Shown: in pieces, positions 7,960 through 57,675 of the stretch
Layout of the letters: every line of letters starts with the position of its first letter
How positions within the stretch are numbered: position 1 is the first letter of the stretch
Origin: Methanothermococcus thermolithotrophicus DSM 2095
GTDB taxonomy: Archaea > AGJL01 > Methanococci > Methanococcales > Methanococcaceae
Assembly (NCBI RefSeq): GCF_946463545.1
Contig: NZ_OX296583.1
Location: forward strand, 62,001-126,000
Direction of reading: 5' to 3'
DNA: 64,000 bases
Notes under the pieces: generated by a model
Databases searched by the model: none
Told to the model about the DNA's origin: nothing
Seen by the model: the letters and a program-made list of their open reading frames with translations, nothing else
Made by a program: the position numbers and the translations under genes

Positions 7960-8910
7960 TTGAAAATAACAATAGGTACAAGAGGAAGTAAACTGGCACT
8001 TGCACAAACCCATTACATAGAAGGGCTTTTAAAAGAAGTGGGAGTAGATGTTGAAGTAAAGATAGTAAAAACCACTGGAGATAAGGTACAGGATAAAAAA
8101 CTATCAGAACTAGGGATTGGTGTATTTACAAAAGAACTTGATTTAAAGATGTTGAACAATGAGGTAGATATTGCTGTTCACAGTTTAAAGGATGTGCCTA
8201 CTGTTTGGAATGAAAATTTAATAATTTCTGCAACCCCACCAAGGGAGAGCTACCATGATTTAATACTGTGGAAAAAAGAGAATGAATTTGATATAGAACA
8301 CGATGAATTAATAGTGGGAACTTCAAGTATAAGGAGGACTGAATTTTTAAGTATTAAGTATCCAAATTTAAAAACTAAACTCCTGAGGGGCAATGTTGAT
8401 ACAAGATTAAGAAAATTAAGGGAAGGTCAATACGATGCTATAATCATAGCAGAAGCTGGCTTAAGAAGATTAAAAATAGATCTCTCTGAATTTAACTATA
8501 AAAAATTGGATATCTTACCTGCTCCAGCTCAGGGGGTTATAGGTGTTGCATCAAGAAAGGACGATAAAGAAATAAATGAAATTTTGCAGAAAATAAACGA
8601 TAAAAAAACTTATTTAGAAGCCACTGCCGAGAGGTGGGCTTTAAGAGAATACGGCGGTGGATGTCAGGCACCATTCGGAGCTCTGGCAAACTATGACGAA
8701 GAAAGCGAAGTTTTAAATTTAAGGTGTGAACTTGTAGCAGAAGAAAATCAGACAAAATCCTTCGGATTTTGTAACTCTTCGCTTCGCTCCGACCGACATA
8801 AGGTTGTAATCTCAAAGGAAGGTTTTGTGTACTGTAGTGTTGATAAAATAGATTTTGCCAAAAAAATTGGGGAAGAGGTTGGAAAGGCATTAAAACGTGT
8901 GGATGAGTAG
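7960..8910 (+). CDS. hemC: Hydroxymethylbilane synthase (porphobilinogen deaminase)
   Basis: Polymerises four porphobilinogen units to hydroxymethylbilane, the route to sirohaem, cobamides and F430. The 316-residue protein starts ITIGTRGSKLALAQT and carries SLKDVPT, GTSSIRR, LRGNVDTRL and YGGGCQAPFGA, where the Cys binds the dipyrromethane cofactor. The TTG start at 7960 is supported by GGTGA and by the family N-terminus. An in-frame palindromic unit at 8752-8800 adds roughly 18 residues (QTKSFGFCNSSLRSD) to the C-terminal domain. Confidence 0.93.
   Translation: MKITIGTRGSKLALAQTHYIEGLLKEVGVDVEVKIVKTTGDKVQDKKLSELGIGVFTKELDLKMLNNEVDIAVHSLKDVPTVWNENLIISATPPRESYHDLILWKKENEFDIEHDELIVGTSSIRRTEFLSIKYPNLKTKLLRGNVDTRLRKLREGQYDAIIIAEAGLRRLKIDLSEFNYKKLDILPAPAQGVIGVASRKDDKEINEILQKINDKKTYLEATAERWALREYGGGCQAPFGALANYDEESEVLNLRCELVAEENQTKSFGFCNSSLRSDRHKVVISKEGFVYCSVDKIDFAKKIGEEVGKALKRVDE
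8752..8800. repeat. Palindromic repeat inserted in frame within hemC
   Basis: ACAAAATCC-TTC-GGATTTTGT (8752-8772) followed by AACTCTTCGCTTCGCTCCG. The same module, in the other orientation, forms the end of fdhD at 55113-55155. The reading frame of hemC stays open across it. Confidence 0.75.
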
Positions 8911-9077: not shown

Positions 9078-9190
9078 ATAATCCTTCTGGCTTTTATAAA
9101 GGGTTTGATAATCCAGCACCTAGAAAAATATGTCAAAAATAGGAAGATATTTATGAGAGAAAAAGCATAAAAGAAGGATGAAAGTTAAGT
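9078..9190 (+). promoter_or_regulatory. Decayed CRISPR leader (second locus)
   Basis: This stretch aligns over its whole length with the last part of the leader of the main array (25358-25470). Shared blocks include CCTTTCTTGCTTTTA / CCTTCTGGCTTTTA, TTTGATAATC, AGAAAAAT, TCAAAAATAG / TCAAAATAG and GATGAAAAGT / GATGAAAGT. It ends where the first degenerate repeat begins. The 9191 locus is therefore a true CRISPR remnant and not a chance repeat. The rest of 8911-9077 shows nothing recognisable. Confidence 0.7.
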
Positions 9191-9747
9191 GTTTGAATAG
9201 CTAATCCATTATCTTGAAATCTTTACAAGATTTCAAAAAATCAAAAACATAGTTTTTGATTAAACAAGGATGGAAACACAGGTACGAATATGTCTTTTTT
9301 CTTGTGTTTGTAGAGTCTAAAAGACTCATCCATTAAAACAAGGATGGAAACTGTATTTATGTTCAAAAAATAGCTTTAATATCTAGTTTGAATAGCCAAT
9401 CCACTATCTTAAAATCTGTAAGATTCTCGACGAAATCTTTAAGATTTCGTGAGTCTCTACAAAAATTCGAAGAATTTTTGTGAGTCAGTAAATTCTTCGG
9501 ATTTACTTCGATCGACAAAAACCATGGGTTTAGTTAGATAATCGTAGATTATTCAACTCTCGACGAAACCGAAGGTTTCGTGAGTCAGCGAATCTGAAAG
9601 ATTTGCTTCGATCCCCGCAACTATGTTGCGGTGGATTGTGAATCGACAAATTCTTTAGAAATTTGTCTCGATCAGCAAATCACATAGTGATTTGCCTCGA
9701 TTAAGAAATCAAATAACACAGTTGTTTGATTAAACAAGGGAGAATAA
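9191..9747 (+). CRISPR. Decayed three-repeat CRISPR array with repeats split by palindromic insertions
   Basis: Repeat a is split: left half GTTTGAATAGCTAATCCATT.. (9191-9211), a 50-bp insert (9212-9261), right half AAACAAGGATGGAAAC (9262-9277). Repeat b (9315-9351) is intact with one mismatch to the main-array repeat. Repeat c is split: left half 9386-9406, a 325-bp insert (9407-9731), right half AAACAAGGGAGAAT.. (from 9732). Spacers are 37 and 34 nt (9278-9314, 9352-9385). Both insertions fall after nucleotide 21 of the 37-nt repeat. Confidence 0.82.
9407..9731. repeat. Composite cluster of palindromic units inside a CRISPR repeat
   Basis: At least eight hairpins in tandem, joined by short linkers such as CTCGAC, GTGAGTC and GATC. 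Examples are ACGAAATC-TTTAA-GATTTCGT, TAAATTC-TTCG-GATTTA-like units, ACGAAACC-GAA-GGTTTCGT, CCCCGCAACTAT-GTTGCGGTGG and ACAAATTC-TTTAG-AAATTTGT. A cluster with the same module order lies at 57487-57675. The right end, TTGTTTGATT, equals the right end of the insert in the last repeat of the main array. Confidence 0.75.
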
Positions 9748-9784
9748 TCTGGTCGAATTTTAGATAATCGCAGGAGGAATGTGC

Positions 9785-10129
9785 ATGGATAAAAAGGTCG
9801 GACATCTTGAAAAATTGGATGTGAGTGAGCTGACAAAAGATATCAATGATGATTGGAAGAATTTTGTTGTAAGCGAAATAAATGACCATGTTGTAAGATT
9901 GAGTGTTCTACAACGGGATTTCCACTGGCATCTTCACAAAAACAGCGACGAATTTTTTTATGTTATTGAGGGTAAACTGTTTGTCGATTTCGAAGATCGC
10001 ACCGAAGAAATAGGTCCTGGACAGATGATTACCATTCCTAAAAACGTCAGGCATAGGACACGATCCAATCAACGAACTGTAATTTTATGTTTTGAATCGA
10101 AAGACAATGACGTTACAGGCGATATGTAA
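9785..10129 (+). CDS. Small cupin-domain protein
   Basis: A 114-residue single-domain cupin. The two cupin motifs are visible: FHWHLHKNSDEFFYVIEGKL (two His and Glu metal ligands) and GQMITIPKNVRHRTRS (third His). Such proteins bind a divalent metal; the substrate cannot be read from sequence. The ATG at 9785 is preferred over 9779 because AGGAGG lies 7 nt before it. The gene sits between fragments of decayed CRISPR repeats (to 9747 and from 10175), so it may have been brought in by rearrangement. Confidence 0.75.
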   Translation: MDKKVGHLEKLDVSELTKDINDDWKNFVVSEINDHVVRLSVLQRDFHWHLHKNSDEFFYVIEGKLFVDFEDRTEEIGPGQMITIPKNVRHRTRSNQRTVILCFESKDNDVTGDM

Positions 10130-10174
10130 ACGAAAAAAGTTCATAATATTTATTTCACGTATTCTCTTTTTTAT

Positions 10175-10317
10175 GTCTGAAAGATATCATTAAGGACACT
10201 ACGAGCTCAGCGAAGTGGTGTATTACTTTGGGATCCAACACTTTAAAGGGTTGCGTCTGGAGGATACATCCATATCTTATTTTTGGATCCAACCTTTAGA
10301 AAAGGTTGGATGGAAAC
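10175..10317 (+). CRISPR. Degenerate CRISPR repeat fragments downstream of the cupin gene
   Basis: GTCTGAAAGATATCATTA (10175-10192) resembles the left half of the array repeat with a 3-nt loss. A second copy is split: GTCTGGAGGATACATCCATA (10255-10274), a palindromic insert containing GGATCCAACCTTTAGAAAAG (10275-10307), then GGATGGAAAC (10308-10317). The same GGATCCAACC module splits the last repeat of the main array at 28713-28771. Confidence 0.6.
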
Positions 10318-15921: not shown

Positions 15922-16262
15922 AATCACCTGAACGTAGTGAAGGTGAGCTATGAAAACCGCTAGGTTTTCATTCAATCACCTGAACATGTGAAGGTGAGTT
16001 GTAAAAATCCTTCGGATTTTTACTCAATCACCTGAATAAGATATGAGCTCTATGAAATCCTGAAAGGATTTGTTCAATCGGAATGAGCGTCGAAGCAAAT
16101 CCTTCGGATTTACTGTCGAAGCAAATCGAAGATTTGCTGACTCACGAAACCTTCGGTTTCGTCGAGAAGCGAACGAAGATATAAAATTCCTTCGGAATTT
16201 TATTCAATCACGAGTGTAACGAAGGTGATTTAAAACCTTCGGTTTTAAATTTTCTCACCAAT
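15922..16262. repeat. Tandem palindromic repeat cluster upstream of aksF
   Basis: A roughly 48-bp unit recurs about three times: a TCACCTGAAC / TGAAGGTGA hairpin followed by a longer hairpin such as GAAAACC-GCTA-GGTTTTC or TAAAAATCC-TTC-GGATTTTTA. It then passes into units with TCGAAGCAAATC..GATTTGC and ACGAAACC-TTC-GGTTTCGT. The first unit includes the aksF ribosome binding site. The remaining gap to cas6 (16263-16428) is AT-rich with nothing recognisable. Confidence 0.75.
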
Positions 16263-16428: not shown

Positions 16429-17091
16429 TTATAATGGCACCACTGAGCCAAAACCTTTTGATACCTTTCCCCCGATTCCAAACAGATTTGGGATATTAAA
16501 ATTAACTTCAAATTCACCAAAAAATCCAATAAATTTGTTTCCTTTGTATTTGACTGGAATTTCACTATATCTTAAAATATTTGCTTCTATTCTTTTATTA
16601 ACTGTGTAGTTTAAGTATTTACTCATTGATAATAAATTTCCCACCAATATTCTTTCAAGTTTTTCTTTCCGTTCATTCTCATTTAATTTTTTGTAATCCA
16701 AATAATTTTTCTCATTTAAAGCAACCCAAGGGGATACAAACTTATATTTTTTTAAATCGTCACATACCCCTAGCTCCTCAGATTTTACTGATACATATCC
16801 ATCAACAACATTATAAGTTTCATGATTCAATTCTAATTTGTTAATATCAAGCACTATACTTCCTAAAATATTTACTCCCTCAGATATTCCTATTAGATAG
16901 GCATTACCACCCATTATTTTGTACTGAATTTTAGGATAAGAGTATATAAATCCACCCCCGCTGTGGTTGTGCAGTTCTTTATAACCACATTTATTGAACT
17001 TATTTAATATATATCCCCTCAAATAAGAAGTTTGAGACTTTTTTAATGGTCTATCTGTCTTTAATTTACAATACATTGTTTTTAATTCCAT
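16429..17091 (-). CDS. cas6: CRISPR pre-crRNA endoribonuclease Cas6
   Basis: Cuts the repeat in the array transcript to release crRNAs. The 220-residue protein ends in the glycine-rich loop GIGGKVSKGFGSVVPL typical of Cas6 (RAMP) proteins, and has a ferredoxin-like pattern before it. The start at 17091 is chosen because GAGGGA lies 4 nt upstream; the next upstream ATG (17103) would overlap cas3. Last gene of the leftward cas operon. Catalytic His candidates are HNHSGG near residue 40. Confidence 0.88.
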   Translation of the reverse strand: MELKTMYCKLKTDRPLKKSQTSYLRGYILNKFNKCGYKELHNHSGGGFIYSYPKIQYKIMGGNAYLIGISEGVNILGSIVLDINKLELNHETYNVVDGYVSVKSEELGVCDDLKKYKFVSPWVALNEKNYLDYKKLNENERKEKLERILVGNLLSMSKYLNYTVNKRIEANILRYSEIPVKYKGNKFIGFFGEFEVNFNIPNLFGIGGKVSKGFGSVVPL

Positions 17092-17099
17092 ATTTTCCC

Positions 17100-19460
17100 T
17101 CATAGTATTAACATATTATCTTCAACAACCTTAAATCCGGTTTCTACGTCATAATATGTTTCATCAATCACATTTATATTCTTATTTTCATCTATTAAAG
17201 TATCCTTTCCTTTGATGGCATGTTTGGGAACGGATATTATGTATTGATAAAAGTCCTTTTTTATTTTTAAAAATTCCCCCTTTCTTTTAAATGGGTCGTT
17301 TATGCTTTTTATCCGCTCATATTCATCATATACTTCTTTTGATTTATCTTCAACATTTACAAACAGATTTATTTGAAGTATTTCATCGATTAGCTTAAAG
17401 TTTTTAGGAACTTTATCGTACTCAAACTTTTTAATAGTTTCCAATAACTCTCTCGATGAATCATCATATCCCTTCAATTTGTTAAAATAACAATTGCTAA
17501 GGTTTAAAAACTCCCTTTCTTCAATTTCATCATAGTTTTTTAATAATTCCTCAGTCTTTGAAATGAGAGCTCCGTTATAAATATACCTACTGAATGGATG
17601 ACCATTATCATTGATTAGTTTGACTATGTTTATACTCCCCTTTTCTGTTCCTTCCCCATGTCTGTTGCATCTCCCCGCAGTTTGATTTATTGAATCCAAT
17701 GGTGCAATATCTCGATATACGATATCAACGCTTATATCCACTCCTGCTTCGATTAATTGGGTGGATACTATGATTTTTCGGTTATTGTTTTTATTATTTT
17801 TATTAATCTTCTCAATACGGTTTAAACGCTCCTTTGGATATATATTGGCGGATAAATAATAATATTCAGTATTTTCATAGCTATATTCCTTTAATAAGTC
17901 ATAAACTTCTTTTGATGATTTTATAGTATTCAATACTATTAAAAAATCTTTATCTGGATTGTTGTTTATGTCTTCGTCTAATACATCTACAAATTCAGTT
18001 AAATCCATAGGTTCATTATGTATTTTCATTTTTATTCTGTTTAAGTTTAAGAAATAATGTTCTTTGTCGTCAAGAAGTTCCACATATTCATTTTTATCAA
18101 AAATCATAGGTAGCGTGGCTGTTGTAAGTATGAAATATATATTATACTCCCCTGCCAAAAATTTAAATATTTTATTGACTAAATGCCAGTATTTGTGAGG
18201 AATGGACTGTATTTCATCCAATATGATTATGCTGTTAGATAAGCTGCTGAACTTTTTTAAATCGCTGTTTTTATTTGAAAATATACTGTAAAACAACTGC
18301 ATAAATGTTGTTGTAATTATTTTGGAGCTCCATGTTTCTATTAAGTGAAGTGATTTATCTCCATCCAATATATTTTCTTCCCCATTTTCCTCATGTCTAT
18401 ATACCACATCTGACAGATGGTGATGTTTTAAAAGAATATTCGAAGGAGGATTTTTTAAAACTTCATTTAAAACTTTGTAGTTTTGGTCAATAATGCTTAA
18501 AAAGGGAAGGCAGTATATTATTTTCATATCGATGTTTTTTTCAGTTTTTATCCGATTTGACAATTTTAGGGCAAAATTAAAAATAGTAAGAGTCTTTCCA
18601 ATTCCTGTTGGAGCATTTAATGTGTATATTTTTTGATTTAAATCTAAATTATGCACTTTATTTGAAATTTTATAAAATATTTCTGTTCTTAGGTGGTCTA
18701 TTGGTTTGATTTTAGGTTTATTTTCAATATAATCAATAATATCAGTTGGGATTTTACTAAAACCGTCGGTTTTCGAAATCCTTAACGGAGTGTCTGAATT
18801 TGCTGGATAGTTGTTAGAAGTTTGTCTAAATATGGCATCCTCTTTATCAGATGATATTAACAGAGAAAATAAATATTGATACAAATAATACATTTCGGTT
18901 TTCATTTCATCGTTGGTTTCATATTTTAGTTCATCACAGAGATACTCCAATTCTTCAACTTCTGAAATAAGTTCCTCAAAATTACAATTCAATTTTGGGA
19001 TATTATTTTCCCCTAAAATGCCGTTTATAAAATTGAAATCTAATGATTCAAACTGTTTTTTTAAAATATTTTCATCATATATGGAAGCATCGTGTATGAG
19101 CTCCGATAAACTGGTATGATGATTTTTTACACATAATGAAAATATTTGGTAGTATTTGTTATTTACCTCTTTTGCCACTAAATAACTCTTTATAATGTAG
19201 TTTGCTAAAATAAACGATATTTCCGAATGTCTTTTTAATATCTTTTTCTCTATTTTCTCATTTCTTATATATTTTTGAAAATAGGTTGTAGTCTTTCCAA
19301 AATCATGGGATAAGCATATTATTTTTAAAATATCCTTGATAATGACATTATTAAAGTATTTTAATTTTGGCGGATTGTATTTAGATAATGCCCTATTTTT
19401 TGTGTTTATAAGATGTTTTTTTAGTGGATAGTCAGGATTAGGATGAGATATAAGCTCCAT
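17100..19460 (-). CDS. cas3: CRISPR helicase-nuclease Cas3
   Basis: Unwinds and degrades target DNA after recruitment by Cascade. The 786-residue protein starts with an HD nuclease domain (ICLSHDFGKTT, His52/Asp53) and continues with an SF2 helicase: Walker A NAPTGIGKTLT (near 285), DEIQ box IILDEIQSIPHKYW (near 405), TTATLP, and motifs V-VI STQLIEAGVDISVD and INQTAGRCNRHGE. Both activities are intact by motif. Lies between cas5 (17 nt away) and cas6. Confidence 0.94.
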   Translation of the reverse strand: MELISHPNPDYPLKKHLINTKNRALSKYNPPKLKYFNNVIIKDILKIICLSHDFGKTTTYFQKYIRNEKIEKKILKRHSEISFILANYIIKSYLVAKEVNNKYYQIFSLCVKNHHTSLSELIHDASIYDENILKKQFESLDFNFINGILGENNIPKLNCNFEELISEVEELEYLCDELKYETNDEMKTEMYYLYQYLFSLLISSDKEDAIFRQTSNNYPANSDTPLRISKTDGFSKIPTDIIDYIENKPKIKPIDHLRTEIFYKISNKVHNLDLNQKIYTLNAPTGIGKTLTIFNFALKLSNRIKTEKNIDMKIIYCLPFLSIIDQNYKVLNEVLKNPPSNILLKHHHLSDVVYRHEENGEENILDGDKSLHLIETWSSKIITTTFMQLFYSIFSNKNSDLKKFSSLSNSIIILDEIQSIPHKYWHLVNKIFKFLAGEYNIYFILTTATLPMIFDKNEYVELLDDKEHYFLNLNRIKMKIHNEPMDLTEFVDVLDEDINNNPDKDFLIVLNTIKSSKEVYDLLKEYSYENTEYYYLSANIYPKERLNRIEKINKNNKNNNRKIIVSTQLIEAGVDISVDIVYRDIAPLDSINQTAGRCNRHGEGTEKGSINIVKLINDNGHPFSRYIYNGALISKTEELLKNYDEIEEREFLNLSNCYFNKLKGYDDSSRELLETIKKFEYDKVPKNFKLIDEILQINLFVNVEDKSKEVYDEYERIKSINDPFKRKGEFLKIKKDFYQYIISVPKHAIKGKDTLIDENKNINVIDETYYDVETGFKVVEDNMLIL

Positions 19461-19477
19461 ATAGAGTCCCCCAATAT

Positions 19478-20203
19478 CTAAATAAAGGTAATATTCTCTT
19501 TTAGTTCTGGAATAGGGTAATACTCTTTAACCTTGCAACTTATTGGTTCTCCATTTCGTTCGTAAAATATATCTATATACTCCGTGGTTATTCTATTTTC
19601 ATCCATCTCATTTGGTATCTTTGAAAATAAATACTCCCTATCTATTTCCAAATTAATATCATCATTTATTATATTATCTCGCCTAATTAATGAGTTAATG
19701 AGCGTGTATTCATTATAGGAAACTTTTTTCTCAACCTCAAACTCCCCTATATATTCAAAATTTGCTATGAGCTCCGATAGTCCCAACGATATAATATATA
19801 CTGTTTTATGCTGTTCCAACAATTTCTTTAATTTTGAATATAGTCCCTCATCCGTTAAATGAACATACAACCTATATTTTGGATTTTTAAGCATTTCAAA
19901 TCGTATTTGTGTTCTGCCATTTATTAGATTAAAACCCGGTCCTTTTACCCTGCCTTTTTTTGTATCAATTAGATTTAGGGCGATATTGGTTTTTTGTATG
20001 GGATTTTTTATTCTTAGGGCTATCTTTACAGTATTTTTATTTATATGCTTTAAATAGTCCTCTTTATCCAATCCCAAAAATGCCCCCAATATGCCATATA
20101 TTGAAGTTTTTGGGGGAAAATCATAAGATAGTGGGCTCGTAGTTGTATAAATTTTTTTAAAATGTCCATAGTCCCCCCATATATCAAAAACTATTAGTTT
20201 CAT
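19478..20203 (-). CDS. cas5: CRISPR Cascade subunit Cas5 (type I-B)
   Basis: RAMP-fold Cascade subunit that holds the 5' handle of crRNA. The 241-residue protein has the Cas5 N-terminus (VFDIWGDYGHFKKIYTTTSPLSYDFPPKTSIYGILGAFLGL), where the PPKTSIYGILGA segment is family-typical, and a glycine-rich RVKGPGFN patch. GTGAG precedes its ATG. A CRISPR-repeat-like fragment lies just upstream at 20217-20232. Confidence 0.92.
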   Translation of the reverse strand: MKLIVFDIWGDYGHFKKIYTTTSPLSYDFPPKTSIYGILGAFLGLDKEDYLKHINKNTVKIALRIKNPIQKTNIALNLIDTKKGRVKGPGFNLINGRTQIRFEMLKNPKYRLYVHLTDEGLYSKLKKLLEQHKTVYIISLGLSELIANFEYIGEFEVEKKVSYNEYTLINSLIRRDNIINDDINLEIDREYLFSKIPNEMDENRITTEYIDIFYERNGEPISCKVKEYYPIPELKENITFI

Positions 20204-20210
20204 ATTCTCA

Positions 20211-20241
20211 CTTTTACATCCTTGTTTTAATGAATACGTCT
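20211..20241 (-). other. CRISPR-repeat-like fragment between cas7 and cas5
   Basis: On the minus strand, CATTAAAACAAGGATG (20217-20232) is identical to 16 nt of the array repeat, preceded by a weaker match TAGACGTATT and followed by TAAAAG in place of the expected GAAAC. It lies 14 nt upstream of the cas5 start. It could be a relic repeat or part of a regulatory crRNA-like element; no second repeat was found beside it. Confidence 0.6.
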
Positions 20242-20270
20242 AAAATATTTAAAAAATTTAAAATTGAAGT

Positions 20271-21257
20271 TTAAATAACAATTTCTTTAAACTCAATTCC
20301 ATCGACATTGAATTTAAACTCCTCACCGTTGTAAGTTAGTTTTAATCTATCATCCCATACGTATTCAACATTTTCAATTTTATCTTTATTTTTCAGTAGA
20401 ATATCAATTAATTTTGTCATGTCAATTTCATAGTCATCGGAGCTCCTAATTTCCTCGTCTTTGACATCGGATTTAATAGCTAAGCATTTGTCCAAATCTC
20501 CAATATGGTAGTTGTTTTCCTTGTAATTCACTTTAATTAATAACCTTGGAGTTTGTCCCATTTTACTTCTGCTAATTAGGTTTTTTGTCCCATTCCATAC
20601 TGCATCAATAAGTTTATCTATGTCTTCTTTTGATAGATTGGTATGTTTTGCGGCATTTTCATTTATTATTCCATAAAATGATATTAAAGAGTATGGAACG
20701 ACATATTCTTCCCTAAAAGTTTTTTGTCCTTTATCCTTTCCAGATGCAAATGCTCCAGTCCCCTTTATAAACATTGGCTCTACTTTGTGGAGAGACTTCC
20801 CAAATCTAAACTGAACAGGTCCTGTAAGTGTAATAGAACCTCCCTTGTTTTTCTTTAATTCAATAGGTATTGTACCCCCAAAAAGTCTAACATCGATACA
20901 GCTGTTTAAAATGTTATTCTTCATTATTTCTTTCATTTCATTTAGTTTTAGATTTGATTTATCAATTTTATTGTTATTTTCATCATACAGGAAGTCCTCA
21001 GCCCTCAACTTTGCATCTTGAATATTACCTTCATCGTCTTCAATTTCCCTTACAAATATTTCCTCCCCTTTAAATTCATTTAAATAGTCCCTGATAGTTC
21101 TTTTTAATCTAACATCACTTACTAAATTTATTCCAGTTGATGGGTCAATTCTTGGCTTGTTATCATCCAATGGGTCCCCATTTGGATTTGCATATTGGAC
21201 ATCGTATAAAAATATTAATTCACTTCTGTTTATGCCATTTGATTCAGTATTGCTCAT
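20271..21257 (-). CDS. cas7: CRISPR Cascade backbone Cas7 (Csh2 family)
   Basis: Forms the helical backbone of Cascade along the crRNA. The 328-residue protein has the Csh2 signature FLYDVQYANPNGDPLDDNKPRID followed by VSDVRLKRTIRDYL, and later SITLTGPVQFRFGKSL. The start at 21257 has GGGGGAGGAAA directly upstream; a longer frame from 21296 lies wholly inside cas8b. The 14-nt overlap with cas8b implies translational coupling. Confidence 0.93.
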   Translation of the reverse strand: MSNTESNGINRSELIFLYDVQYANPNGDPLDDNKPRIDPSTGINLVSDVRLKRTIRDYLNEFKGEEIFVREIEDDEGNIQDAKLRAEDFLYDENNNKIDKSNLKLNEMKEIMKNNILNSCIDVRLFGGTIPIELKKNKGGSITLTGPVQFRFGKSLHKVEPMFIKGTGAFASGKDKGQKTFREEYVVPYSLISFYGIINENAAKHTNLSKEDIDKLIDAVWNGTKNLISRSKMGQTPRLLIKVNYKENNYHIGDLDKCLAIKSDVKDEEIRSSDDYEIDMTKLIDILLKNKDKIENVEYVWDDRLKLTYNGEEFKFNVDGIEFKEIVI

Positions 21258-23094
21258 TTTCCTCCCCCTCATTATTGTTTTTGTGTAGGTTGTCAAAAAC
21301 GGAGCTCATGGAAATGCCCAATGAAAATATATAAGATATTTCATTGTTTGATAAATTCCAATTGCCACCAGATTCTATAAATCTGCGTGCAGTTTCTTCT
21401 TTTAGGCGGGAATAATAATTTATATTATCCTCCTGCCCATATTCCATTAATTTTTGAGTTGCCTCTTTGAATATATTTTCAACTTTGGATTTATCCAATT
21501 TTAAACCATGAAGTTTCGCTAAAAACGGTTTTGACTGTCGTTTTTGATATTGAAGGTTTAAAAGTTTATTAACCAACACACCAGTTAAAAACACTGTTTT
21601 TTTATCCTCACTGTTGAAAAACTCCCCATAATCTTCAAAAAACTTATCTATTTCACTGTAATCATATGTGGATTTTTCTGTGATGATTTCACCCCTCGGT
21701 TTTAGGTTAGTATTGAGTAGATTTGTGTTAATTAGGAAGTAAATAACCATAAATGATTTGTATGCGGATAAACTGATAGATTTGTTATTTGTGAATTCTC
21801 GCCGTATTTTTGAGATAAATTGGTTAATTAGGTAATGATAATCAATTTTTTCATTTGAAAATACGCTGTTCATAAGTTTTAAAAATACTTCGTTATCAAC
21901 AAATTCCTTAATATATCCAAATAAAAACTTCAACCCCTCTAAATCCTCACTATTTTTGAATATTGAAGTTGGATACTCCCGCTGATCTTTATTTAGCCTT
22001 TTTAAATCCGCATTTATTTTATAGCTTTTGAATACTGGCATGTTTTCAGTTTTTTCCATGGCGTTGTATAATATACTGAACCTTGAAGGAAGAACATCCT
22101 CAATCATTTGAAGAACTTTGAAATCATTACCTTCGTTGAAGAACATGAATGTAGTGTAGCAGTAAATATCCCTGTTTTTTAGAAATCTCAGCAAATGTTT
22201 TTCATTTCTAGAATAATCCTTGTTGATTCCCACATTTTTTACTAAGTCATTATACCTATTTAGGATTCGCTCCATGTCTTTGTCAAATAAGACCTTTGGA
22301 ATCATATAAAATTCTGTTCCGTAAAATCTGCCCCTTAAATTTTCATCCAAATATTTTTTCCCCTCTTCAACAGCCAATGCACATTTTAAACATATTGGAA
22401 AGGTTTTCCATGCTTCATTTGGATTAAATCCACTTACATTTCCAATTTTATCCACTGTGTAAAACCCAAATTTTCTAAACAGACCATATACTTCTTCATT
22501 TTCTTCATTACATATTGAACATACGCCGGAGCTCTTTGAATTTATGTTTCCAGTTTTTATATAATAATAATCCATGGTAGCTTTGTATATGAAATAATTT
22601 CTGAACTCCTGAATATCTCCGACAAAATATTCATTTTCACCATCTCTAAATGTTATGGTGAGTATTGTGCCATCCTTTCCCTTTTTGTCGATGATATCTT
22701 TTAAAATTTTATCCTCGTTATCTTTTAGGGATTTTTCCAATTTTTTAAGTAAATGAGATTCTTTATAATCTTTATATTTTCTTGTTTCAGATACTGCCTT
22801 GATTATCTTTTTTTTCAGCGTTTTTTCAGGTTCTGTAATTTTTGAAGTTGGTGAAAAATCAGCACCGTTGGAAGCCCCTGCTTTATACATTAATTTTAAT
22901 ATTTTGCCCTTATCAAATTCATCAATATACACTCCTAAATACTCCAACGTATTATAATCAAAAGTTATTTTCAATATATCCTTATAATTTCCTTTCACAT
23001 TTGGATTTTCAACCAATATTGATAATGGATTGTTTAAATCTTTTTCTTCATTTTTTATTACATAGTTTCCAATTTGTGCTACATTTGATAACAT
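21244..23094 (-). CDS. cas8b: CRISPR Cascade large subunit Cas8b (Csh1 family)
   Basis: Large subunit expected to recognise the PAM and recruit Cas3. The 616-residue protein begins MLSNVAQIGNYVIKNEE, as in Csh1, and has a Cys4 zinc-finger-like region, CSICNEENEE (near 200) paired with FPICLKCALAVEEGKKYL. The ATG at 23094 follows GGTGT; the 12 codons upstream run into the promoter. First gene of the leftward cas operon, divergent from cas1. Confidence 0.88.
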   Translation of the reverse strand: MLSNVAQIGNYVIKNEEKDLNNPLSILVENPNVKGNYKDILKITFDYNTLEYLGVYIDEFDKGKILKLMYKAGASNGADFSPTSKITEPEKTLKKKIIKAVSETRKYKDYKESHLLKKLEKSLKDNEDKILKDIIDKKGKDGTILTITFRDGENEYFVGDIQEFRNYFIYKATMDYYYIKTGNINSKSSGVCSICNEENEEVYGLFRKFGFYTVDKIGNVSGFNPNEAWKTFPICLKCALAVEEGKKYLDENLRGRFYGTEFYMIPKVLFDKDMERILNRYNDLVKNVGINKDYSRNEKHLLRFLKNRDIYCYTTFMFFNEGNDFKVLQMIEDVLPSRFSILYNAMEKTENMPVFKSYKINADLKRLNKDQREYPTSIFKNSEDLEGLKFLFGYIKEFVDNEVFLKLMNSVFSNEKIDYHYLINQFISKIRREFTNNKSISLSAYKSFMVIYFLINTNLLNTNLKPRGEIITEKSTYDYSEIDKFFEDYGEFFNSEDKKTVFLTGVLVNKLLNLQYQKRQSKPFLAKLHGLKLDKSKVENIFKEATQKLMEYGQEDNINYYSRLKEETARRFIESGGNWNLSNNEISYIFSLGISMSSVFDNLHKNNNEGEENEQY

Positions 23095-23208
23095 ACTACA
23101 CCAATTAATACTATAAATAGATATTAACATATATGTATAGTAATAATTATATTTAATAACATATATATAATTTTTTTATTTTAAAATTAGAAAATAAATT
23201 GTGGGAAT
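23095..23208. promoter_or_regulatory. Divergent cas promoter region (cas8b / cas1)
   Basis: About 110 bp of nearly pure A/T with several TATA-like stretches (TATATATAA, TTTATAGT, ACATATATGT) suited to divergent archaeal promoters. ACATATATGT is a perfect palindrome and a possible operator. No repeat-like sequence is found here. Confidence 0.5.
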
Positions 23209-24213
23209 ATGGATTTACTTTTAAAAACTAATGGATTTTTTCTATCTAAAAAAGAAGATAGATTCCACGTGGAACTGGAAAAAGATGGTAAAATCATAAA
23301 AACAGATATACCTGCAAGCAAAATAGAAAGAATAATCCTTTCAAACAATGGAACAATCACTACGGGGGCGGTATCTCTCGCTATTGAAAATAACATTCCA
23401 ATAATATTTTTAAAATGGGAAGAACCAACAGGTATGATTTGGCATTGTAGAATTGGAAAAACTGCTAAAACTCGAAGAAGTCAGCTAAAATTTAGTGAAT
23501 CCATTGAAGGCATAAGGTTTGCATCGAATTGGATTAAAAGAAAGATGGAAAACCAAATAGGCTATTTAAAAGACTTAAAAAAGAATCATAACCATAAGGG
23601 GGATTTTGATACAATAATAAAAAACATTGATAACTGTATGGAGGAGCTCACCCAATACACAAACAATATTGATGATAAATTACCCCATAGGGAAATAAAA
23701 GATACAATAATTGGGATAGAAGGAATTGCTTCAAAATACTACTTTGAAGGTATAAATCATGCCCTACCTAAGAATTATAAATTCAAAGAAAGAAGTAGAA
23801 GACCTGCAAAAGATAGGTTTAATGCCCTTCTAAATTATGGATACGGAATGCTTTATCCAATGGTTGAAAAATGCCTTATTATTGCAGGTTTAGACCCATA
23901 TGTTGGTTTTATACATGCCGATAATTATAATAAAACCACGTTGGTTTATGATGTAATTGAAATGTATAGAGCTCATATCGATAGGGGAGTTGTGAATTTT
24001 ATAAACTCTAAAAAAGTTAAGGATAATCATTTTGATACTTTGGAAAACGGGATTTCATTATCTGATAATGGAAAGGGGGAATTTGCACCATATATAAAAG
24101 ATAATGTATTTGGAAAGGAGTTTTATTTTAAGAATAAAAAATATTTATTGCCTGATTTTATACAAAAGGAATGTTATGAGATTGCCAAATCAATAAGGGG
24201 GAAGATTTTATGA
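23209..24213 (+). CDS. cas1: CRISPR integrase Cas1
   Basis: Metal-dependent integrase that inserts new spacers together with Cas2. The 334-residue protein follows the Cas1 plan: an N-terminal beta domain (LLKTNGFFLSKKEDRFHVELEKDG), IPIIFLKWE, then the helical domain with the catalytic Glu in IGIEGIASKYYF, the His in GFIHADNYNKTTLVYD, and a following Asp. GTGGGAAT precedes the ATG. Its last 4 nt overlap cas2. Spacer acquisition looks possible. Confidence 0.95.
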   Translation: MDLLLKTNGFFLSKKEDRFHVELEKDGKIIKTDIPASKIERIILSNNGTITTGAVSLAIENNIPIIFLKWEEPTGMIWHCRIGKTAKTRRSQLKFSESIEGIRFASNWIKRKMENQIGYLKDLKKNHNHKGDFDTIIKNIDNCMEELTQYTNNIDDKLPHREIKDTIIGIEGIASKYYFEGINHALPKNYKFKERSRRPAKDRFNALLNYGYGMLYPMVEKCLIIAGLDPYVGFIHADNYNKTTLVYDVIEMYRAHIDRGVVNFINSKKVKDNHFDTLENGISLSDNGKGEFAPYIKDNVFGKEFYFKNKKYLLPDFIQKECYEIAKSIRGKIL

Positions 24214-24503
24214 TTTATGTGATTTATGACATTAGTGATAATAAAATAAGGAAAAAAATATCGGATAAATGCTTAAATTATGGACTTTATAGGATTCAAA
24301 AGTCGGTTTTTGCAGGAAGTTTAAATAACAATAGAGTGGATGAGCTCAGGGTTTTTTGTGAAAATATTCTTAAGAATGGTGGTGAGAACGATAAAATATA
24401 CATCATACCAGTATGCAAAAAATGTTTTGGAAGTTTGATATGTGTGGGGGAAGAATTTGATAAAGATTTAATCACCGATAATAAAAATACGCTGGTGCTT
24501 TAA
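24210..24503 (+). CDS. cas2: CRISPR adaptation protein Cas2
   Basis: Small ferredoxin-fold partner of Cas1. The 97-residue sequence begins MIYVIYDISDNKIRKKISDKCLNYGL, with the conserved Asp after the first strand and a later QKSVFAG segment, as in the family. It overlaps cas1 by 4 nt and cas4 follows immediately, giving a tightly coupled adaptation operon. Confidence 0.94.
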   Translation: MIYVIYDISDNKIRKKISDKCLNYGLYRIQKSVFAGSLNNNRVDELRVFCENILKNGGENDKIYIIPVCKKCFGSLICVGEEFDKDLITDNKNTLVL

Positions 24504-25097
24504 ATGAGCGATGAAGAGATGATAACAGTTTCCGATGTTGTGGAGTATATGTATTGCCCGAGATTTGTTTATTTTGAGAGAGTTTTAGGCATTCCACAGC
24601 ATGAAGAAAAAAGGGAAAAAGTTGTTATTGGTAGGAACATTCATGAATTAAGGGAGAAAATAAACAAAGGATACATTAGAAAAAGTATAAATGCAAAATC
24701 AAAATACATTGATGTTTATTTGTCATCTAAAAAGTATAGAATTGTTGGGGTAGTGGATGAGATTGTAGAGCTCGGGGATGGTAGTTATTCACCACTTGAT
24801 TATAAGTTCGCCGAGTTTAAGAATAAGTTGTTTAAGACTCATAAGTATCAATCGGTGCTTTATGGGTTGTTAATTAAGGATAATTTTGATGTGGATGTTA
24901 AAAAGGGCTATGTGGTTTATGTTAGAAGCGGGAATTTAGTTAAGGAAATAGAATTTAAGAAAAAAGATTTTGATGATGCTATTATATTTGTTGATTTGAT
25001 ATTTGATATAATTGAAAATGAGGAATTTCCTGATGGCATTAAAGTAAATAAAAGAAAATGTATTGATTGCTGTTATAGGAATGTGTGTTGTAAGTGA
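24504..25097 (+). CDS. cas4: CRISPR adaptation nuclease Cas4
   Basis: RecB-family exonuclease that trims prespacers and helps select PAM-proximal ends. The 197-residue protein has one Cys near the N-terminus (MYCPRFVYFER), nuclease motifs RIVGVVDEI and PLDYKFAE, KYQSVLYGLLI, and a C-terminal cluster KCIDCCYRNVCCK, giving the Cys set for a 4Fe-4S cluster. It follows cas2 without a gap. The order cas1-cas2-cas4 is unusual; cas4 more often precedes cas1. Confidence 0.92.
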   Translation: MSDEEMITVSDVVEYMYCPRFVYFERVLGIPQHEEKREKVVIGRNIHELREKINKGYIRKSINAKSKYIDVYLSSKKYRIVGVVDEIVELGDGSYSPLDYKFAEFKNKLFKTHKYQSVLYGLLIKDNFDVDVKKGYVVYVRSGNLVKEIEFKKKDFDDAIIFVDLIFDIIENEEFPDGIKVNKRKCIDCCYRNVCCK

Positions 25098-25470
25098 TTA
25101 ATATTTTTGATGATGATCATTAAATTTTTTAATTTTGCTTTCTAGCTTTTATATATGGGGCATCTGATTTTGTTCCGAGAAAAATGCAAAAAAGTATTAC
25201 TGTTTTTTTCGATGGAGATTCTTTATTTTTTATATATGTTGGTATTTTAAGGTTATTCTATATGTTTTAAGGATTAATGAGTTTAAATAATATAAAATAA
25301 GGTTGGATAACGCTTCTTTTCTCCTACTGTTGTGTTTAGTATTTATAATCATGATACACAACCTTTCTTGCTTTTAAATACTATTTGATAATCAACCAGT
25401 AAGAAAAATCACTTCAAAATAGAAAGGCATATAAACTAGTAAAACAATAAAAAAAGATGAAAAGTATAGG
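25098..25470 (+). promoter_or_regulatory. CRISPR leader of the main array
   Basis: A 373-bp AT-rich non-coding stretch between cas4 and the first repeat, without an ORF. The part proximal to the repeats (25358-25470) is similar over its full length to 9078-9190, the leader of the decayed locus, which marks it as the conserved leader element. The inverted pair TGTGT..ACACA near 25331-25360 may be regulatory. Confidence 0.8.
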
Positions 25471-28400
25471 GTCTGAAAGACTCATCCATTAAAACAAGGA
25501 TGGAAACGTAGATAATCTATAGGAATCAGGAATAGTATTGACGTCTGAAAGACTCATCCATTAAAACAAGGATGGAAACTAACATCTTTTATTTCTTTCA
25601 TTTTTATTCACCTTGTCTGAAAGACTCATCCATTAAAACAAGGATGGAAACCTGCTAAGAATGATTTTTTAGGCATTGATGTCATGTCTGAAAGACTCAT
25701 CCATTAAAACAAGGATGGAAACACTTTTCAATTATATTTACATTTCCTTTCATTGTCTGAAAGACTCATCCATTAAAACAAGGATGGAAACAATTCTTTT
25801 TCTCTGTGTTGTTTAAATCGGAAAGTCTGAAAGACTCATCCATTAAAACAAGGATGGAAACTTTAATCCTAAAAGCTCTCCAATATTTCTTAAGGTCTGA
25901 AAGACTCATCCATTAAAACAAGGATGGAAACTTTCTTTTTCCATGTTATCACCTTTTTATTTTTGTCTGAAAGACTCATCCATTAAAACAAGGATGGAAA
26001 CGCTGCTTCTATAGTTTCAGCTATTTTCTTCAAGTCTGAAAGACTCATCCATTAAAACAAGGATGGAAACCCTGAAGCATGTTCCTCAATAATGGTGGGT
26101 AGTGTCTGAAAGACTCATCCATTAAAACAAGGATGGAAACCTTTTGGAGGATACTTCCATTCAATATATGCTTGTCTGAAAGACTCATCCATTAAAACAA
26201 GGATGGAAACATTGCTTGAGATCTCCTTTTTTTCTCTTTTTTGTCTGAAAGACTCATCCATTAAAACAAGGATGGAAACGTTTTAAAACCTAGTTTACAC
26301 CGGCCTATCTCATCATCGTCTGAAAGACTCATCCATTAAAACAAGGATGGAAACTTTTCATTTCTTCCCTGTTTTGGGAGTCTGAAAGACTCGTCTGAAA
26401 GACTCATCCATTAAAACAAGGATGGAAACTCATACATTCTTTCATCCCATCCGAAAGTTTTTCATAGTCTGAAAGACTCATCCATTAAAACAAGGATGGA
26501 AACATGGATAAAAAGTAAGATAAAGTAGGGGATTATGTCTGAAAGACTCATCCATTAAAACAAGGATGGAAACTCTTTTCAAAAGCTACGCTGCGGACAT
26601 ATTCTTCGTCTGAAAGACTCATCCATTAAAACAAGGATGGAAACCTCTTTGTTTGCAGTAATTAATTAGTAGTGTGGTGGAGTCTGAAAGACTCATCCAT
26701 TAAAACAAGGATGGAAACATCTCTTGTATCCTGAGATACTCTTGCTCCAACATAGTCTGAAAGACTCATCCATTAAAACAAGGATGGAAACTTGTTGGTA
26801 TTTCTATTAATCTCCAATCACCAGGTCTGAAAGACTCATCCATTAAAACAAGGATGGAAACCGCAAAAGCAAATCATTAACTTGATAGAATATGAGGTCT
26901 GAAAGACTCATCCATTAAAACAAGGATGGAAACTTTGATGTGGTTAATTTTTTATTTGTGGCTTTAAGTCTGAAAGACTCATCCATTAAAACAAGGATGG
27001 AAACAATGATTAAGGTTAATATGATAAATTTTAATAATGTCTGAAAGACTCATCCATTAAAACAAGGATGGAAACTTTTTGCACATAGTGCCTCTACATA
27101 ATTGTTTGTGTCTGAAAGACTCATCCATTAAAACAAGGATGGAAACTTGTATTGGTTATTTTTATTAATTCATCGCTATTTAGTCTGAAAGACTCATCCA
27201 TTAAAACAAGGATGGAAACTGTTTAGGTCATTCAAATCAATCTTATTTACTGCACTGTCTGAAAGACTCATCCATTAAAACAAGGATGGAAACAAGACCA
27301 AACGGCTGCAGCATCAACTTTTGTTGTATTGTCTGAAAGACTCATCCATTAAAACAAGGATGGAAACTTTTTCAACCGTTATAGTAAATCAAAGTTTTTG
27401 TCTGAAAGACTCATCCATTAAAACAAGGATGGAAACTTACTCTTTCAATGGTCGTATACTCATCAGGTTGTGTCTGAAAGACTCATCCATTAAAACAAGG
27501 ATGGAAACGGATATATTGATTACGGGGAAAAGGAAGGCTTTAAAAGTCTGAAAGACTCATCCATTAAAACAAGGATGGAAACAAAGTTGTCTTTTTTCAT
27601 GGTGGTAATTATTAATCTGTCTGAAAGACTCATCCATTAAAACAAGGATGGAAACAAGAATATAAACTTGGCATGTACATCTACACAAATGTCTGAAAGA
27701 CTCATCCATTAAAACAAGGATGGAAACATCTACAGCATCACGAAATACTTCATTACCTAAAGTCTGAAAGACTCATCCATTAAAACAAGGATGGAAACTC
27801 ATTATGTAAAATACCAAAGTGATATAATAATCAGTCTGAAAGACTCATCCATTAAAACAAGGATGGAAACTCATTCTACAAGGGAACCGGACAACATCCA
27901 TTTATGTCTGAAAGACTCATCCATTAAAACAAGGATGGAAACAACATGGATTAAAAGTTGATGGAACTGGCATACAGTCTGAAAGACTCATCCATTAAAA
28001 CAAGGATGGAAACTAAACTCTACCTTATATTTTATTTTTATTTCATGTCTGAAAGACTCATCCATTAAAACAAGGATGGAAACAGCTTTTTAACCCAGCA
28101 ATATATTTTGCATCAACGTCTGAAAGACTCATCCATTAAAACAAGGATGGAAACTTTACAGTCCATACTCCATTAACATTCAAATAAAGTCTGAAAGACT
28201 CATCCATTAAAACAAGGATGGAAACTTATATCTACACTTAATGTTGCTCCATCTCCTTGTGTCTGAAAGACTCATCCATTAAAACAAGGATGGAAACTGA
28301 GAAGGTATAGAGTTAAAGAAATATCTAAAAAGTCTGAAAGACTCATCCATTAAAACAAGGATGGAAACAAGAAATGTACATTTGTGATTTGATAGACAGA

Positions 28401-28691: not shown

Positions 28692-28787
28692 GTCTGAAAG
28701 ACTCATCCATTATTTTATTTGGATCCAACCTTTTCTAAAGGTTGGAAATCAAACAACTACGTTGTTTGATTAAACAAGGATGGGAAC
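28692..28787 (+). CRISPR. Last array repeat, split by a palindromic insert
   Basis: The left 21 nt of the repeat (28692-28712) are intact. A 59-bp insert follows (28713-28771) with two hairpins, GGATCCAACC-TTTTC-TAAAGGTTGG and ATCAAACAAC-TAC-GTTGTTTGAT. The right half AAACAAGGATGGGAAC (28772-28787) has one mismatch. The split point is the same as in the decayed array at 9211 and 9406. No further repeats follow. Confidence 0.85.
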
Positions 28788-29842: not shown

Positions 29843-30514
29843 TCATTCCACATTTCCTAAATTCTTTAAAATTTCACTTCCGAGTTTTGATTGTGTATAT
29901 TTTTCAATATAATTGATATTTTGGTGTTTTGTTATTTTTGCTAGAACCTGAGAAGGAATGCCCTGTTCTCCAAGGTATGTAATATACGCATATCTAAATG
30001 AGTGTGAGTTTATACCGTAATTTTTTGATAGCCATGTTCCTAGTCTGTTTACGATTTTTAATCTGGTTTTTTTCTTTTCTTCTATTGTTTCTGAGCTCGA
30101 AACTTCTTCCATGATTTTTATAAATTCTTCTTTTACGAGTTCGATATCGTTTTTATTTACGCATTTTGGTAGGATTAGGTCTCTTAGTTCTCCGTCTTTT
30201 CTTTTTTGTGTTCTTACTTTAACAATTACTCTATCGTTCCAGTTGATTTCGTCTAAATTTATGCATAGGGTTATCATTCCTGTGATTGCCTCCCATATTC
30301 TGCATCCGTTCCGTAATTGTAGTAGAAAGGTTAATAGGTAGGCGTATTTTTTCTTTTGTTTTTTGTATAGGAATGGTTTGCGCCGGAGCTCGTCTAATTC
30401 ACTTTTCAGCATTTTGTAGGTTGTTTCGTAGTTTAGTCCTTTGTCCCATGTTCCTGTTGTTTTTTGTGTGTTTGTTTGGTTTGTGGTGTTGTGGGTCCAG
30501 TCCCAGGTTTTCAT
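29843..30514 (-). CDS. Tyrosine recombinase/integrase
   Basis: A 223-residue site-specific recombinase. The catalytic set of the tyrosine recombinase family is present: Arg in LQLRNGCRIWEAI, a Lys in KVRTQKRKDG, HSFRYAYITYL for His-x-x-Arg, ITKHQ for the second His, and Tyr in YIEKYTQ. The N-terminal part (first 25 residues rich in Thr, Asn and Gln) is short for a full arm-binding domain. GGTGAAAAA precedes the ATG. It lies beside pseudogenes and the array end, so it is probably a leftover of an integrated element; no att repeats were found. Confidence 0.75.
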   Translation of the reverse strand: MKTWDWTHNTTNQTNTQKTTGTWDKGLNYETTYKMLKSELDELRRKPFLYKKQKKKYAYLLTFLLQLRNGCRIWEAITGMITLCINLDEINWNDRVIVKVRTQKRKDGELRDLILPKCVNKNDIELVKEEFIKIMEEVSSSETIEEKKKTRLKIVNRLGTWLSKNYGINSHSFRYAYITYLGEQGIPSQVLAKITKHQNINYIEKYTQSKLGSEILKNLGNVE

Positions 30515-57486: not shown

Positions 57487-57675
57487 AGTTGAATAATCAT
57501 AGATTATTCAACTCTCGATGAAAATCTTCGATTTTTGTGAGTTCGACAAAAACCAAAGGTTTTTGTGAATCGACAAATTTCAAAGAAATTTGTCTCGATC
57601 AGTAAATCCTTCGGATTTACTTCGACAGCAAATCTCCGATTTGCTTCGATCCCTGCAACTGTAGGTTGCAGTGGA
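57487..57675. repeat. Composite palindromic repeat cluster
   Basis: Hairpins follow in the same order as in the CRISPR-splitting cluster at 9407-9731: AATAATC-ATA-GATTATT, GAAAATC-TTC-GATTTTT, ACAAAAACC-AAA-GGTTTTTGT, ACAAATTTC-AAA-GAAATTTGT, GTAAATCC-TTC-GGATTTAC, and CTGCAACT-GTA-GGTTGCAG. Linkers CTCGAT, GTGAATCGAC and CTCGATC recur. The rest of the gap to 57896 is AT-rich with nothing recognised. Confidence 0.7.

Follow-up and report, generated by a model that had tools for sequence, protein, structure and literature searches.

Relict CRISPR arrays are common, and they are usually explained by loss of selection followed by decay through point changes. The locus reported here, at 9078-10317 of the 64,000-bp stretch of DNA that was analysed (the window, C1:62001-126000 of a genome consisting of a single 1,706,496-bp contig), is a relict of this known kind, and shares with other orphan and relict arrays a leader, few repeats, degenerate ends, the absence of cas genes directly beside it and the repeat type of a cas-linked array. 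However, such arrays fade by point changes, whereas here the repeats are split at one internal point by hairpins, and this repeated and position-exact splitting by dispersed palindromes is the unusual part. The type I-B arrays of other Methanococcaceae (those of G003, of G004, presumably Methanococcus aeolicus, of G006, which we take to be Methanotorris igneus, and of a Methanothermococcus MAG) share the repeat core CATTAAAACAAGGATGGAAAC and have leaders homologous to those found here, but their examined ends carry unsplit terminal repeats. With regard to the splitting elements, Rickettsia palindromic elements are short dispersed palindromes that encode no protein and also stand in-frame inside genes; the elements described here resemble them in being dispersed, in-frame and non-coding, a likeness in behaviour, but differ in that they are nested in one another and in CRISPR repeats. 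IS1397 and the REP/RAYT systems use palindromic units as targets or substrates, and by analogy insertion may be linked to the palindrome loop in both cases; in contrast to those systems, the present genome yielded no Y1 transposase and the inserts encode nothing. A search of the open-access literature turned up no description of palindromes that had entered the loops of CRISPR repeats; this is weak evidence that none exists.

A genome search placed the repeat core at four sites, namely the relict locus, the main array in the window (C1:87.4-90.8 kb), a regular array at C1:993.0-993.7 kb, and a long array on the opposite strand at C1:1417.8-1421.7 kb. The latter three are still large or regular, with about 45, 8 and 55 repeats, and look intact except at their ends; therefore, the locus at 9078 is the fourth, broken one. 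A sequence-only reading had correctly recognized it as a second CRISPR locus within the window, but its statement that the organism once had two arrays falls short of the four loci found. More than 100 unsplit copies of the repeat are present in the genome, and among named records the exact repeat core was found only in a Methanothermococcus MAG, which makes a methanogen of the Methanococcaceae the very likely host; the relatives compared throughout were the nearest genomes, all of one family. Seven cas genes with NCBIfam matches above cut-off, cas3, cas5, cas7 and cas8b on the minus strand and cas1, cas2 and cas4 on the plus strand, lie within 16429-25097 (named genes at 17.1-25.1 kb) and make up a type I-B set adjoining the main array, so that cas genes of matching type stand 7-16 kb from the relict locus in the same genome. 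A 224-aa ORF beside them (16429-17103) had no NCBIfam match. Within the main array, one spacer ends in a partial repeat start, with GTCTGAAAGACTC twice in a row (26370-26410), which is a small duplication at the repeat boundary, and a phage-integrase-family gene (PF00589) is located near the array end at 29843-30514.

As the sequence-only reading had it, three repeats with spacers of 37 and 34 nt constitute the recognizable part of the relict locus, which like all its features is on the plus strand. The leader-proximal repeat, R1, consists of a 5′ half (GTTTGAATAGCTAATCCATTA, 9191-9211) identical to the main repeat at 16/21 positions, a 50-bp insert (9212-9261) composed of two perfect 10-bp hairpins (9214-9236 and 9239-9261), and a perfect 3′ half (AAACAAGGATGGAAAC, 9262-9277, 16/16). 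It is followed by spacer 1 (37 nt, 9278-9314) and by R2 (9315-9351), a repeat of the main type with one mismatch in 37, whose 5′ half is the best match in the window to the repeat 5′ half outside the array (20/21) and whose 3′ half is perfect. Downstream of spacer 2 (34 nt, 9352-9385), R3 begins with a 5′ half (GTTTGAATAGCCAATCCACTA, 9386-9406) that matches the main repeat at 14/21 and R1 at 19/21 positions, with 89% identity to R1 over 35 nt including the insert start, and continues with a 325-bp mosaic of about ten hairpin units (9407-9731), after which the 3′ half is reduced to the 8-nt remnant AAACAAGG (9732-9739). Both spacers are similar in length to those of the main array.

In the folded repeat, a stem ATCC/GGAT encloses the loop ATTAAAACAA, the stem region spanning nt 13-32 and being centred at 22.5, and both R1 and R3 are cut between nt 21 and 22 of 37, in the middle of the hairpin loop that the repeat itself forms (ATCCATTA^AAACAAGGAT, ^ marking the cut). 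When folded, R1 keeps its outer CRISPR stem and carries both inserted hairpins in the loop (z -4.9, with 0/200 shuffles as stable). The same structure is formed (z -5.0) by the last repeat of the main array (28692-28787, plus strand), where a 59-bp insert with two hairpins (28713-28771) occupies the same cut point. Two end repeats of the C1:993k array are likewise cut at this point, and at the C1:1417k array a cut repeat stands one unit beyond the last good one. The junction GATT^AAACAARG is common to R1, R3, the main terminal repeat and the two C1:993k end repeats, and in four of these it is made by the hairpin AATCAAACAAC..GTTGTTTGATT, which is absent elsewhere in the genome. Therefore, the description of a decayed locus broken up by palindromic repeats has to be refined, for the interruption is real but R1 and R3 are not randomly decayed, each being cut at the loop centre, and R2 is nearly intact; the palindromes do not scatter through the locus, and where they meet a repeat they do so at one fixed point.

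Splitting of this kind leaves room for a still-working two-spacer array, in which the hairpins would extend from the loop and leave in place both the 8-nt handle ATGGAAAC and the stem, likely the part recognized by Cas6, so that crRNAs would still be made from spacer 1 and perhaps spacer 2. The outer stem kept in the R1 fold, the perfect 3′ half of R1, the single mismatch of R2 and the type I-B genes 7-16 kb away all speak for it, but the 3′ half of R3 is down to 8 nt, the leader ranks with the most diverged ones in the aligned set, and limited searches found no protospacer: neither spacer had a convincing target in phages or in viral contigs, the latter searched with one 20-mer per spacer, and the one 20-mer match to a viral contig does not extend across the spacer. 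We regard continued function as unlikely, and a dead array as most likely, since a split in the repeat next to the leader should halt or disturb the acquisition of spacers. Spacer 1 may nevertheless still yield a crRNA, because the handle, the R1 3′ half and R2 are good.

The 113 bp before the first repeat (9078-9190) had been read as the locus's own leader, aligning over its whole length with the end of the main leader (25358-25470), and this is borne out: 78 of 114 columns are identical in a global alignment (68%), with a score of 114, shuffled sequences averaging 37.4 (sd 8.1, maximum 67; z = 9.4), and a chance alignment of AT-rich DNA is ruled out, as 0/5000 dinucleotide shuffles scored as well. 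A local alignment with the leader of a third array scored 153, compared with a shuffled maximum of 100. The sequence stands directly before the first repeat, as expected of a leader, and can be aligned with 17 leaders taken from this and three other genomes, the leaders of the whole CRISPR family being alignable. It is homologous to the main leader, yet not a copy of it.

The homology would also be explained if a recent duplication had produced a degenerate, partial copy of the main array, and such events have precedent, because the nearly identical leaders of the main and C1:1417k arrays indicate that array duplication does occur in this genome; R2, too, is of the main type. However, over the leader and repeat start the relict shares only 67% identity with the main leader and 73% with a leader of G006, whereas the main leader is 80% identical to one from another genus (G004). 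In the leader tree the three active leaders and the G004 leader form a clade with 100% support, from which the relict leader is excluded on a long branch, and R1 and R3 start with the GTTTGAATA-type sequence, as do the G006 repeats. Recent copying is thus quite improbable. A likelihood test on constrained leader trees did not discriminate, because both constraints returned one and the same unrooted tree. The native repeat of the locus (GTTTGAATA...) resembles the Methanotorris type, and the locus is chimeric, R2 being its only repeat of the main type. We read it as an old lineage frozen in place, in which R2 was exchanged with or converted from an active array; the intact, main-type R2 implies that the locus has undergone recombination or is to some degree still maintained. 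The base changes and insert shared by R1 and R3 could derive either from copying of an already-split repeat or from repeated insertion, both being possible.

The palindromes themselves were followed by genome searches and in about 100 kb of sampled stretches, on which the following statements rest. Most of the inserted hairpins belong to genome-wide families: the GGATCCAACC..GGTTGG hairpin has 18 genome matches, both strands counted, most of them away from CRISPR, and units like those that fill R3 are found at more than 30 places in the genome. Dense clusters of the same families also occur in the window at 15950-16250 and 57487-57621. This dispersal weighs against regarding the array-end hairpins as functional parts, for example transcript-end or processing signals, and not as insertions. 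In all three active arrays they stand at the trailing end or just beyond it, which would suit such a role, but the same structure is found in the leader-proximal R1, and the array ends checked in relatives, where the terminal repeats are unsplit, offer no counterpart; a functional origin is accordingly given little credence. The trailing ends share the sequences ATAAGTTAAAAGGATG... and CATTATTTTATTTGGATCC... (window 28692-28787; L022, 1620-1880; L023, near 1200-1330 on the minus strand), and therefore array ends have been duplicated between loci. As some split repeats are shared through this duplication, independent insertions are fewer than the copies, perhaps four to six.

Several observations bear on how the units move. 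In hemC, a related palindromic unit at 8755-8800 is inserted in-frame and adds 15 aa (KSFGFCNSSLRSDRH), and it is absent from seven orthologues; therefore, units of this kind do insert. Being dispersed, palindromic, in-frame in a gene and absent from its orthologues, they show the attributes of Rickettsia palindromic elements, with no homology implied. Nested composite blocks starting with CTCGACR and ending with TTCGATT lie between the arms of other hairpins, and hairpins so interrupted have uninterrupted forms elsewhere, e.g. CAAAACCT[block]TTTTAAAAGGTTTTG; one such block lies within the insert of a split repeat of the C1:993k array. In some dispersed hairpins the block sits in the arm and not in the loop, so that loop insertion is a tendency at best, and an automated search for nested insertions returned too much noise for a loop-versus-arm rate to be derived. 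Among 12 sampled copies of the GGATCCAACC..GGTTGG hairpin, nine had flanking direct repeats (23-62 bp) scoring above all 300 shuffles, eight of them with scores of at least 43 and the ninth with 31, while of 916 random window positions none scored at least 43 and 10 reached 31. These flanks are unique host DNA, sometimes gene 3′ ends (L118-L127; L023 upstream of an array leader), which suggests insertion with unusually long target duplications; long duplications of this kind were not found around the CRISPR insertions in the relict locus. A Y1 transposase was considered as the mover, and none was found, PF01797 being absent from the genome; the search itself works, as five of 14 control genomes gave matches.

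That the palindromes home to hairpin loops is plausible, and CRISPR repeats, being palindromic, would be natural targets. The wider proposal, that self-spreading nested palindromes home to the loops of hairpin DNA, disable arrays from within the repeat while keeping its outer stem, do so without a Y1 transposase, and often leave host direct repeats of 23-62 bp, is put forward only tentatively.

Beyond R3, the fragments that had been reported at 10175 and 10255 differ in how well they hold. At 10255-10273, the exact 19-mer GTCTGGAGGAYACATCCAT reads as the 5′ half of another split repeat, followed by a hairpin insert of the dispersed GGATCCAACC..GGTTGG family (10274-10307) and the 3′ remnant GGATGGAAAC (10308-10317). 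Its 21-mer matches the repeat at 16/21 positions, which is joint second best outside the array in the window, and the 19-mer occurs in the genome only here and just past the trailing end of the C1:1417.7k array, both copies directly after a GGATCCAAC..GTTG hairpin; the fragment is CRISPR-derived. The other, at 10175-10192, is a probable 5′ repeat fragment, with GTCTGAAAGA exact and then a shortened ATCATTA ahead of hairpin elements, and is plausible but weak as a CRISPR fragment, with moderate support. The cupin gene said to lie inside the locus is a real ORF between remnants (9779-10129, 116 aa; Pfam Cupin_2, PF07883, E 1.2e-13), and the arrangement would fit insertion into one continuous array as well as a position between two separate remnants. 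It was probably acquired, as 21 other genomes of the family yielded no close relative, and is a normal small cupin with no sign of belonging to CRISPR function.

Based on these findings, we consider it probable that the locus is a relict orphan type I-B array of an old leader-repeat lineage, split by palindromes, which then stopped and eroded. First, it would descend from that lineage and not from the present main array. Short mobile palindromes would then have entered the loop at the dyad centre in R1, R3 and the repeat left as the 10255 remnant, splitting each into ATCCATTA and AAACAAGGATGG, whereupon the locus may have ceased to grow, gained the foreign cupin gene and eroded. In the three working arrays, insertions at the trailing end would be tolerated, as they affect the oldest repeats, which are situated outside the part that carries the crRNAs.

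Where loss of selection and point decay are the usual account, a concrete structural cause is visible here, namely dispersed palindromes that, at all four loci of a single genome, enter the repeats at their dyad centre. If loop targeting is true, CRISPR repeats are open to attack by elements that seek out palindromes, and the movement of such elements can be studied at exact empty sites, of which the unsplit repeats supply more than 100. In its old leader and repeats, the locus also retains an earlier state of this CRISPR family. In G004, a solitary perfect CRISPR repeat core was seen beside leader-like sequence (L081, about 1499-1525; G004:C1:732966-732990), which is another relict, down to one repeat.
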